Shown here: positions 33,045-60,300 of the stretch, in pieces | Numbering within the stretch: position 1 is the first letter of the stretch | Layout: every line of letters begins with the position of its first letter | Source: Ovis canadensis | Taxonomy: Eukaryota; Chordata; Mammalia; Artiodactyla; Bovidae | Assembly: GCF_042477335.2 (NCBI RefSeq) | Contig: NC_091254.1 | Location: 100,217,001-100,281,000 of the forward strand | Length of the DNA: 64,000 nucleotides | Direction: 5' to 3' | Translations under genes and position numbers: made by a program | Notes under the pieces: generated by a model | What the model saw: only the letters and a program-made list of their open reading frames with translations | Told to the model about the DNA's origin: nothing | The model's database searches: none

Positions 33045-34411
33045 ACTCACTGAGTGAGCACGATGGCCTGAGGGCTGTGCTGTTCCTGAGACAGGGATCG
33101 AGAGGCCGCCGCGCTCCGACTTGAGGGCAGGGGACACGACCGCTCCATCTGTTGCCTCTAGCGGCATGGTGGCCAAGGCTGACCCTGGTTCCGTCTCTCC
33201 GCCCCGCTGCCCCAGGAACCAGATGGCCACGTGGACCTCACCCTGCAGTGATGCCCCAGCACGTGGGGTGAAAGAGGAGGAGAAGGAAAGGGAGCCAGTA
33301 AGATGCGAGACTGGAGGGGCAGCAGGGGCTGGTGGGCATCGTCCCGCCACCTGGGGGACAAGTACGTGTGGGCGTCACCCGTGGGTGGTCCCGAGGAGGT
33401 TCTCCCCGAGCAAGCAGCTCAGGCCAGCGCAGCAGCTGCCGGCCTTCTCTGCGGAAGCCGCTGTGGCCGTGACTGGGAGTGTGACCACCGGCATGGCCCT
33501 GGGGCCCAGCAGGGCGGGGAGAGGGCCCAGTCGACACAGCTCGGATTCAGGCAGGAAACGGGCTCTGAACACAGGAGGGTCCCGAAATCACAGCGGTGAG
33601 AACCTTCCACCCAGAGTGTCCTGAGGACAGAAGCTCTGCAGAAGCCCATCCTAGGAAAGCGTGTGGAAGGAAGTTCTTGGCCCCAGGCTGGAGCAGACTG
33701 GCTTTTGCCCAGACCTGGAGGCCCAGCTGCCCAGGGCCTCAGCGCGGCGCTCAGAGGCGTGTGCGGTCCGGCCCACTGCCTGTCATGCGGTTCAGGCTGG
33801 GCTGCCTTGTCACTAACCCTCACGCGGACCTTCGAGGGCCACCCTGAGCTCGCTCCTTCTCCTCCTAGAGGGTCATCTCTGAGCCCTGAGAGACGGTGGC
33901 CCCCAAGCCCCCGGGTCAGCACCCACTCTGGCCGTGGCTTGGAGGACGCGCCCGGACCTCCTGAGCTCTGCAGGGTCCTTGTCAGCTCACCTTTCCTGAC
34001 CAAGGAGGGTGGAGTATGCACCCTGGCCTCCTGAGCTCTGCAAGGTCGTCGTGGCCCAGCAGAGCAGCGTGTGGAATGTGTTTATTTAGTTCCTGGCTCG
34101 CAGCAAGTGCTTGATAAGTTTCAGAGATCGTCCCAAATATTTCTAGCGCTGCTGAAGCCGAGTGTTTGAAACTGCATCCGGTCCATCTTGGAGCCTCTGC
34201 AGCAATCCCGGCTCCGCCTTGGCTTAAACTTGGGCCTGGGAGCTGACCCCTATAGGTCAGAGAAGCCCTTTCCACCTGTCCTGGGGAGGCCTGGGGTCCC
34301 TGGCCAAGCTGCGAGCAGCCCTCAGTGGTGGGTGGGCAACCAGACGGAAACCGCACAGCTGGTAAGCGCCTGTGTCCAGGCCTTGACTGAGGCTGACCCT
34401 GCCCCTGCCCC
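33045..34411. other. GC-rich unique intergenic DNA
   Basis: No gene or repeat recognised. Open frames on both strands are composition artefacts. Confidence 0.45.
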
Positions 34412-54973: not shown

Positions 54974-55269
54974 GATGTCTGCTGGGCAACGAGCAGAAAG
55001 TCAGGACGCGCTGGGCGTCCACGCTTGTCTCCCCCAAGAAGGGAGGCGATGTCTGCTGGGCAACGAGCAGAAAGTCAGGACGCGCTGGGCGTCCACGCTT
55101 GTCTCCCCCAAGAAGGGAGGCGATGTCTGCTGGGCAACGAGCAGAAAGTCAGGACGCGCTGGGCGTCCACGCTTGTCTCCCCCAAGAAGGGAGGCGATGT
55201 CTGTTGGGCAACGAGCAGTAAGTCAGGACGCGCTGGGCGTCCACGCTTGTCTCCCCGCAGACTGGAGGC
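54974..55269. repeat. Tandem repeat, 74-bp unit, four copies
   Basis: Units start at 54974, 55048, 55122 and 55196, each opening GATGTCTGCTGGGCAACGAG. The first three are almost identical; the fourth differs at a few positions and diverges at its end. Very high identity implies recent duplication. Confidence 0.95.
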
Positions 55270-57022: not shown

Positions 57023-57028
57023 TTTATT
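57023..57028 (-). other. Poly(A) signal of the C13orf46-like gene
   Basis: AATAAA on the minus strand, 57 nt downstream of the TGA stop. Position fits a short 3' untranslated region ending near 57005. Confidence 0.6.
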
Positions 57029-57084: not shown

Positions 57085-57376
57085 TCATGGCGCCTCTGAA
57101 GCAGGCTCCTCTGGTGTCTCAGGACAGCTGTCTGCGTCCTCACCCCTCCCTGGCAGCTGGCCCAGGAGCCAAGTGGAGGCCCGGTTACTGGCCAGAGGGG
57201 CAGGTCTGGGGTAGGACCCGGGAGGCAGCCTGCCCTCCGCCCGCCCCACGCCATGCTCTGCCCCTCCCTCAGCCTGCTCCCTCCCCGAGCCTGAATCACC
57301 TTCTCCAGGCTGCCCACTCTGCTTCACCTTCTTTCTGGTGGAGTACGGGATGCAGCATACCCAGCTGGTCCTGGAC
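57085..57376 (-). CDS. C13orf46: C13orf46-like, terminal coding exon
   Basis: The first base completes Glu; the exon then reads SRTSWVCCIPYSTRKKVKQS and continues for about 76 more residues of Gly/Pro/Ser/Arg-rich sequence to TGA at 57085-57087. The acceptor CCTCCAG|GTCCAG is the first copy of a minisatellite unit that repeats eleven more times upstream. A poly(A) signal lies 57 nt beyond the stop. I recall the human protein ending soon after the CCIPYSTRK block, so the long tail may be a lineage-specific extension. Confidence 0.72.
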
Positions 57377-60300
57377 CTGGAGGCCAAGGGAAGGGGTGAG
57401 AGGCACGCCACCCTCCCACCAGCTCAGCGTGAGTGTGGGTCCTGGTCCTGGACCTGGAGGCCAAGGGAAGGGGTGAGAGGCACCCCACCCTCCCACCAGC
57501 TCAGCGTGAGTGTGGGTCCTGGTCCTGGACCTGGAGGCCAAGGGAAGGGGCGAGAGGCACCCCACCCCTCCCACCAGCTCAGCGTGGGTCCTGGTCCTGG
57601 ACCTGGAGGCCAAGGGAAGGGGTGAGAGGCACGCCACCCTCCCACCAGCTCAGCGTGAGTGTGGGTCCTGGTCCTGGACCTGGAGGCCAAGGGAAGGGGT
57701 GAGAGGCACCCCACCCCTCCCACCAGCTCAGCGTGGGTCCTGGTCCTGGACCTGGAGGCCAAGGGAAGGGGTGAGAGGCACCCCACCCCTCCCACCAGCT
57801 CAGCGTGGGTCCTGGTCCTGGACCTGGAGGCCAAGGGAAGGGGTGAGAGGCACCCCACCCTCCCACCAGCTCAGCGTGAGTGTGGGTCCTGGTCCTGGAC
57901 CTGGAGGCCAAGGGAAGGGGCGAGAGGCACCCCACCCCTCCCACCAGCTCAGCGTGAGTGTGGGTCCTGGTCCTGGACCTGGAGGCCAAGGGAAAGGGCG
58001 AGAGGCACCCCACCCTCCCACCAGCTCAGCGTGGGTCCTGGTCCTGGACCTGGAGGCCAAGGGAAGGGGCGAGAGGCACCCTACCCCCTCCCACCAGCTC
58101 AGCGTGGGTCCTGGTCCTGGACCTGGAGGCCAAGGGAAGGGGCGAGAGGCACCCCACCCTCCCACCAGCTCAGCGTGGGTCCTGGTCCTGGACCTGGAGG
58201 CCAAGGGAAAGGGCGAGAGGCACCCTACCCCCTCCCACCAGCTCAGTGTGCATAAGCTCGCCAGCCAGAGACGGCTCCCAGGCCCCTCTGGGGCCCTCCC
58301 CTCTCTTGCCTCGGCTTCTCCATCCCAACAGGAGCCCCTTGAACCAGAGAGGCCTTGAAGGCCCGCTGAGCGTGACGCCCCGTCCACCCACAGCCCAGCC
58401 GTGAAGAGGCGTCGCAGGTGGACAGTGTCCACCCCAGCCCAATCAGTGTTTGCAGAGGACTGCGGCCTGTGCCTATTCCTGTTGGGGGGACTCTGGGGGT
58501 TCCACTCCCAACCAAGGCTCTCTCTGGGGTCAGACGGCTCCTCTTCACAGGGACCTCCTTGGCTCTGGGCCAGTGTCCCAACGGGCCCCTGACAGGCACC
58601 TCAGTGCCTGAGAGGGCCGACTGAACGGACTGAGGCTGCAGGTGAGCAGGCAGGTGACCCCGCCTCCCTGGCACGCATCTAGGCACCCCCCCCGCCCCCC
58701 CACCACGAGCAGACTCTGTCCTGTTCGCCAAGGAGTTGCCAGCCGCCGAGGCCTGGTTCCTAGGCCTGGCCCCTCCACAGGTTCTCTGGGGCAGCTGAGC
58801 AGAGTGTGGGAGCCAGACCCAGAGGCTGAGAGGTGGGCCTGAGCCTGCCTGGCCTGGGGCAGAAAAGGAGCTGCCAGGCTTTGACCCAGTCCATCACCGC
58901 ATCCAGTAAGAAATGACGAGAAAAGCAGATGCTAGCATAAGACTTTCCCAGCAAGCCTAGCTCCGAGGCTGTGCCAGGCAGTCCTGACACCCTGGTAGAA
59001 GCTGTGTGCCTGGCCGTGTGAGCAGAGATCAGCACAGGCTTGGGGGTGACACTTCCTCACAGGGACACTGTCCCCCCGGAACCCAACCCGGGGAGAGGCA
59101 GTGACAGCCACCGCCAAGTTGCAAAGGGCCGGGACACTGCGGCCAAGCGCGTCTGGAGGCGCAGGAGCGTGGCCGGGGGGTCCCCTGCCCGCAGCTCACC
59201 CATGCTCCAGCCTCTGCTCCCGGCCCCTCAGGGCCCAGGCTCCCAGACGCCCCCACTGCCTCCAGTTGGTGGCACGTGGGTATTTTAAACCTTCCCTCTC
59301 TGCTGTGCCACTTCATGTGGCTCCATTTATTTTAAACGACTATCAGTTTACAAAGTGAACAGAGAAATTCTTCTTTTTAAAACTGTGCAAGCAAATCACC
59401 CAAGGTATTAATTTGGTCAATTCAGATGAAGAGCGGATGAGCTGCTGTTTTCTTCTCTGTATCATTTAAAGTGCCACTGACCCACAGCCCTTGGGCGCAT
59501 GTCGCACCTCCTGCTGGCTTCAGAGCCTCACGATCTCCACCCCGGAGGGTGGAGGCGTTGGCACAAACACCCCCTGCCCCCCAGGCTCCCCTGAGTGGAC
59601 GCCTCACTCACTCGTCCTCCGACACATCCCCCATGTCCTTCTGGGACCGCTTCTCTTCTTTCGTGATGCACGAGACCACCTGCGGGGCGGGAGGCATTAG
59701 GGACCGAGGCTGGACCTGCTGGGCCCGCCGAGAACAAGACGGGATGTGGGGACGGCCCCGAGCATCCTCCCATGTGGCGGGGTTCCGTCAGGCGGGGGTT
59801 TCTAACTAGGGGACCAAGACCAAGGAGCCATGCCCTTGACCCTGGAATGCAAGTCAGAAGGCCTGGTCCCTCAGTCCAGCTCTGCGCTGGCTGAACCTTC
59901 TTGAGTCCTTGAACCCTGTCCCCTCGGTAACCTTGGGATGAGTCAGCAACCAACTCTCTTCAGCATGCATCCTGTTCTGAGGGCAAAGAGCTAGGAAGTA
60001 CCGCCTGGAAAGGAGCAGCCCCCGAGGCAGGGGCTTACTTTTGCCAAGAGAGAATTAGAGAGAGTGTCCAAAGAGGCGGCTACTCACTACAACAGAAACA
60101 GAATATTTGTGTTGGAAAGGCCAATCAAGGTTGACCACTGGGTCAACCACTTCTGTTTACAGAGAGTGGTGCTGCAACGGTGGTGGTGTTGAGGGTGGTG
60201 ACGGCGATGCTGACGCTGATGGAGACAGTGAGTGGGGTGGTAGTTTGATGATGGTGGAGACAGGGACGATGGCGGCGGTGGTGAGGGTAGTACCTGATGC

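Follow-up and report, generated by a model that had tools for sequence, protein, structure and literature searches.

Minisatellites whose units extend across an intron-exon boundary have been described in amphioxus as "mirages" in the genes Adh3, BflGb6, BflGb9, TnC, and PGBD5 (PMC3087553, PMC3902484). The BflGb6 unit consists of the 3' end of an intron and the 5' part of the following exon, and its boundary units are reported to be excluded from homogenization (PMC3087553); length instability together with undisturbed regular splicing was reported for the amphioxus arrays (PMC3087553, PMC3902484). In human segmental duplications, De Grassi and Ciccarelli (2009) tied 27 intron modifications to tandem repeats at exon-intron boundaries; these repeats, with 30 bp units in four copies on average, lie in recent duplicates and can form introns from exon sequence (PMC2812944). 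A third related system is VNTR6-1 of TERT, a G-rich intronic minisatellite located some 3.5 kb away from the exon it affects, for which both a splicing effect and length variation were shown experimentally (PMC11830802).

Here, we describe a sheep minisatellite in the last part of an intron of C13orf46, in which every unit carries a complete 3' splice site. As in the amphioxus mirages, including BflGb6, the units of the sheep array span the boundary, the AG splice signal is repeated, and the authentic copy stays joined to its exon; unlike them, it lies in a mammalian gene and has 12 identical acceptor cores with 12 exon bases in each unit (PMC3087553, PMC3902484). The exclusion of boundary units, an observation made in BflGb6 and not part of the definition of a mirage, does not hold in sheep, where the boundary unit is inside the homogenized pool (PMC3087553). 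The human repeats are likewise mammalian minisatellites at exon-intron boundaries with a bearing on splicing, whereas the sheep gene appears to be single-copy and the acceptor itself was multiplied within the intron (PMC2812944). Like VNTR6-1, the sheep array is an intronic, G-rich minisatellite whose transcript strand may, judging by computed scores, form quadruplexes; VNTR6-1, however, is not described, in the available text of that report, as carrying a splice site (PMC11830802). These comparisons suggest that the array is a mirage minisatellite in a mammal, an arrangement already known from amphioxus. The initial annotation, made from the sequence alone, had called such an array unusual, which is fair for a mammalian gene, although splice-site arrays had already been published for amphioxus (PMC3087553) and, in human, for duplicated genes at their exon-intron boundaries (PMC2812944). 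A search of titles and abstracts in the open-license literature found no report of an array at this locus, and no nearer precedent was present in the available text of PMC3039753 (a Y-linked minisatellite), PMC12776774, or PMC12923665.

Structure of the Array

The array occupies positions 57365-58250, on the minus strand, of the window (the whole 64,000-nucleotide stretch analyzed); of these positions, 874 form the end of an intron of 2235 bases, and the other 12 are the beginning of C13orf46 exon f. Tandem Repeats Finder called it at 57365-58246 with period 77, 11.8 copies, and a score of 1350, and, in the longer call at 57365-58250, with periods 149 and 221 and scores of 1421 and 1501; such scores leave no room for a chance origin. 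The acceptor core, GGCCTCCAG followed at the intron end by the exon start GTCCAGGACCAG, is identical in 12/12 units, and the splice signal CCTCCAG/GT (the slash marks the intron end) recurs in every one. Thus, the minus-strand array of 12 copies with units of 71-78 bp that had been proposed was confirmed, whereas its limits (57371-58260) needed correction, and the exon-derived bases common to all copies number 12 rather than ten.

From the distal end toward exon f, the first six unit cores lie at 58182-58245, 58111-58172, 58038-58101, 57967-58028, 57889-57951, and 57812-57873, with first exon bases at 58193, 58122, 58049, 57978, 57900, and 57823, respectively. Cores 7-12 lie at 57740-57802, 57668-57730, 57591-57652, 57519-57581, 57442-57503, and 57365-57426, with first exon bases at 57751, 57679, 57602, 57530, 57453, and 57376. 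The successive spacings of the acceptors are 71, 73, 71, 78, 77, 72, 72, 77, 72, 77, and 77 bp. Exon f continues directly from unit 12 only, whose AG is at 57378-57377; in units 1-11 the exon-derived bases are followed by GACCCAC(ACTCAC)GCTGAGCTGG, which leads to the following unit.

The array was described from one haplotype, so the term VNTR in the initial annotation is an assumption; its GC content is 0.69. A genome search with the array gave at least four overlapping matches, which, among the matches listed, fall at this locus only. The exact 23-base acceptor pattern had no match in the viral_contigs or genome_contigs collections, neither of which is a mammal collection, and protein searches with the antisense and sense frames of the array returned nothing at E <= 0.001, with about 8000 candidates sharing most words scored in each, which makes them weak tests.

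The C13orf46 Gene and Its Chromosomal Setting

The C13orf46 exons in the window, all on the minus strand, were placed at 62618-62567, 62105-61961, 61876-61829, 60810-60763, 59679-59612 (exon e), and 57376-57300 (exon f, 77 nt). A protein search gave 122 relatives, 120 of them listed; Pfam family PF27972 was found in 114 of the 120, and the six others are unnamed metagenome entries. The window agrees with the sheep model P0001 at 145 of 147 compared residues, the first 60 residues of P0001 have a 100% identical stretch elsewhere on this contig, beyond the limits of the window, and an Ovis-hybrid prediction has a tail of 62 residues with a 100% match in the window, all of which points to sheep or a close Ovis species as the source. 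The exon before the array ends, as had been noted, at donor 59612 (GTGAGT from 59611). The C-terminal end of P0001, QPGEGRGEDADSCPETPEEPASEAP, maps to the donor of exon f (GTGATT from 57299) and a further exon (exon g) from 57149, across an in-frame intron of 150 nt; the coding start of exon g extends over 57149-57087 on the minus strand, with the stop codon running from 57087 to 57085, and a candidate AATAAA polyadenylation signal, recognized by its letters, lies at 57023-57028 on the same strand. Exon f is thus probably penultimate in this model-based structure, and the initial description of it as the terminal exon was probably wrong.

Ruminant C13orf46 models often end in KVKQSA, KESA, or similar, whereas the window and P0001 read on (KQSGQPGEG...), so that an older stop seems to have been lost in both (57376-57085, minus strand, in the window); after exon e, this loss leaves a 97-residue frame, or a 47-residue frame if spliced. 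The models of pig, peccary, and camel (P0023, P0026, P0050) appear to lack about two codons at the beginning of exon f (57376); sheep has a hexamer similar to CAGGAC at this point, and the exon start itself may be a small repeat. The predicted Ovis-hybrid protein P0107 has a distant last exon at 33378-33563 on the minus strand, far past the polyadenylation signal candidate, which is probably a prediction error. Elsewhere in the gene, exon c ends in a GC donor (GAG/GCAAGA; 61829-61828, minus strand). A genome-wide search for a retrocopy of the C13orf46 mRNA, from which its actual splicing could have been read, found none, and its three matches were all at the gene itself.

The 100.5-Mb contig has TTAGGG repeat as its last 10 kb, and 234 kb separate the window from this end; the array is thus a GC-rich minisatellite near a chromosome end, as subtelomeric minisatellites are. 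A short telomere-like run, GGGTTAGGGTTAGGGTTAG, is present at 62161-62143 (minus strand), upstream of acceptor b of C13orf46, and the window contains no exact copy of the 18-base pattern formed by three TTAGGG. Another array near the gene, at 54974-55256, has a 74-bp unit in 3.8 copies with a 99% match and is probably recent. Altogether, 17 merged arrays (period at least 7, after removal of a 5-base row) account for 4011 of the 64,000 bases of the window (6.3%), and one of the 13 listed C13orf46 boundaries falls inside an array. Such an overlap is about what chance would give in so repeat-rich a region.

Origin and Turnover of the Units

The 12 bases shared by all units belong to exon f and encode part of a C-terminus conserved among mammals. 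At the level of sequence, this shows that the bases were copied from the exon into the intron. The tandem duplication across the intron-exon boundary postulated by the initial annotation is upheld by this, and by the limit of the array, which lies 12 bases inside the exon.

The unit cores differ by edit distances of only 0-6 over 62-64 bases, and four pairs are identical (units 9 and 12, 6 and 11, 7 and 8, and 5 and 10), a pattern of homogenization among the units. Unit 12 is at an edit distance of 0 from unit 9 and of 1 from units 6 and 11; because it equals unit 9 over 126 bases, the unit of the working acceptor shares in the exchange. This identity of the working acceptor with unit 9 is newly described here. 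Units 9 and 12 (57652-57591 and 57426-57365, minus strand) are also the only two with GTGGCG where the others have GTGGGG or GTAGGG; this difference reduces the quadruplex score computed for the sequence immediately upstream of the working acceptor (1.12 vs. 1.60-1.84). On the transcript strand, the best 25-nt G4Hunter score of the units ranges from 1.12, in these two, to 1.84, as computed values only.

Only Acceptor 12 Leads to the Conserved C-Terminus

Directly after the residues encoded by the 12 bases, 104 of the 120 listed relatives have retained, with minor differences, a W-V-C-C-I-P-Y-like motif; the residues at the motif are DESRTSW in 14 ruminant models, DETRTSW in 30 others, and DETKTSW in 19. 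After joining exon e, the conserved C-terminus was obtained from acceptor 12 (57376) and from none of the 11 upstream acceptors. Acceptors 1-8 run into a stop inside the array; acceptors 6, 7, and 8 share the frame of exon f but are blocked by a TGA at 57426, and acceptors 9, 10, and 11 reach exon f in another frame. The open frames following the upstream acceptors have 32-133 residues.

All 14 motif-bearing ruminant models listed, which read SEDESRTSWVCCIPY, agree with acceptor 12, as do two ruminant models that enter exon f in another frame (P0016, P0043), whereas P0015, P0022, P0040, P0073, and P0107, also ruminant, are uninformative, stopping before exon f or skipping it. The ruminant models are annotations, mostly from other species, and sheep P0001 is the one likely to come from an array-bearing genome. 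Twelve peptide words derived from the array were absent from the 120 listed relatives, which are annotations in which decayed transcripts would go unrecorded. These comparisons with models support acceptor 12, the "unit 1" of the initial annotation, as the working acceptor.

If the f-g intron is spliced, as models P0001 and P0016 have it, the stops from acceptors 1-8 fall 124-726 nt before the f-g junction, that of acceptor 11 falls 24 nt before it, and those of acceptors 9 and 10 fall 10 nt after it. Transcripts whose stop lies more than 50 nt before the last junction are usually subject to decay; by this rule, the transcripts of acceptors 1-8 would be decayed.

These results also bear on the proposal that allele length could alter the C-terminus because the unit lengths differ modulo 3. 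The lengths do so differ; nevertheless, as long as acceptor 12 is used, the array stays within the intron and differences in its length leave the frame untouched, and, as no upstream acceptor keeps the C-terminus, the modulo-3 differences yield no alternative normal proteins.

Splice Signals of the Twelve Acceptors

The 11 further near-identical acceptors that had been noticed upstream in the intron do share the core in full, and on an approximate matrix, all 12 score 7.8-8.4, units 1 and 4 highest, compared with 2.9-7.4 for the five other acceptors of the gene. The units differ at -21, where a G/A difference separates CTCAC, the branch-point consensus, in six units (6, 7, 8, 9, 11, and 12) from CTCGC in the other six (1-5 and 10). 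No AG intervenes between CTCAC and the acceptor, and the CTCGC units lack any adenosine from -32 to -3. At the working acceptor, the predicted branch point CTCAC lies at 57396-57400 (minus strand) with its A at 57397, a match to the consensus only. This variation between units in the branch point is newly described here, and, judged from the letters, it may matter for acceptor choice. In cattle, 90.47% of the predicted branch points are of the TNA type, at a mean distance of 29.16 bases (PMC8531310). A TNA candidate, CTGAG, is present in all 12 units at -48 to -50, with an extra AG at -32 in the way in units 1 and 3, and acceptor b of C13orf46 also lacks a yTnAy; thus, the absence of CTCAC is no proof of a dead acceptor. 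The A variant is clustered near the exon. We rejected this as proof of selection, because neighboring minisatellite units are related by descent, and the clustering of the A/G variant may be plain minisatellite turnover.

By the accepted rule, the spliceosome takes the first AG downstream of the branch point (PMC8531310), and an AG closer than about 12-15 bases to the branch point may be bypassed (PMC1431707). An upstream acceptor would therefore be favored if the branch point chosen is upstream of that acceptor. Because no difference exists between units 9 and 12 over 126 bases, nothing local separates acceptors 9 and 12; if acceptor 12 is used, the choice would have to come from the exon side.

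Explanations for the Array

We proposed, with a probability of about 75%, that the array is a mirage-type minisatellite that is intronic, mostly tolerated, and not a switch, and that the acceptor next to exon f is the one used. Under this model, the 3' portion of the intron that precedes exon f would have been duplicated in tandem together with the first 12 exon bases, and slippage, unequal exchange, or conversion would have multiplied the units in this region, which is rich in minisatellites and close to a chromosome end. Pairing across the 77-nt exon with donor 57299 would favor the nearest acceptor, and the lack of a consensus branch point at -21 in six of the 11 upstream copies, including the five farthest, would favor acceptor 12 further. 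The remaining copies would be removed as intron or give low-level transcripts, of which those from acceptors 1-8 should be decayed. Against this stand units 6-9 and 11, which have full signals, as well as the local equality of units 9 and 12.

Full signals in six acceptors and the early stops that follow acceptors 1-8 would agree with a splicing dial, in which the share of C13orf46 pre-mRNA lost to unproductive splicing and decay depends on how many upstream acceptors there are and on the state of their branch points, with array alleles tuning expression. In cattle IRF7, a branch-point variant has been associated with the use of an alternative acceptor (PMC8531310), TERT splicing is shifted by an intronic minisatellite (PMC11830802), and C13orf46 is listed among the transcripts of high-fertility bull sperm (PMC8141864). 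The array peptides are absent from the 120 listed relatives, which argues against such tuning, albeit softly, since decayed transcripts would go unannotated; on balance, we regarded it as unlikely. We gave equally little weight to its specific form, in which the count of CTCAC units (six of 12) sets the share of productive to decayed transcripts and conversion toggles the branch point of the working acceptor itself.

The preferred model of a tolerated array was further set against the possibility that an upstream acceptor is the main one in sheep, so that the normal sheep protein has a C-terminus encoded by the array. The first-AG rule (PMC8531310), upstream scores as high as that of acceptor 12, and the 32-133-residue frames would agree with this, but sheep P0001 ends as acceptor 12 predicts, and the C-terminus that would be lost is the one conserved in 104 of 120 listed relatives, which makes it very unlikely. 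Because tandem arrays are error-prone in assembly, a wrong copy number or order of units was also considered; the differences among the units are ordered (edit distances 0-6), the variants need several units at least to hold them, and the contig extends into telomere repeat, which suggests long reads, so that an artifact seems highly improbable. Scarcely credible, finally, is a seed of new exons or introns, as modeled for amphioxus mirages (PMC3087553), in which the AG/GT of all 12 units acts as a recursive splice site or micro-exon: array peptides are missing from the 120 listed relatives, and we rejected both forms on donor scores, since in the approximate scan no GT inside the array, GTCCAG included, passes 2.5, whereas the weakest donor of the gene scores 2.96.

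Taken together, the results describe a natural mammalian intron that contains twelve nearly identical 3' splice sites, only one of which leads to the conserved protein end, and suggest that the mirage structure of lancelets occurs in a livestock genome. With this array it becomes testable whether the spliceosome chooses the first AG that follows a branch point or the acceptor giving the best exon definition, and two of its features, the branch-point variation from unit to unit and the position of a working splice site inside a homogenized pool, are worth testing.
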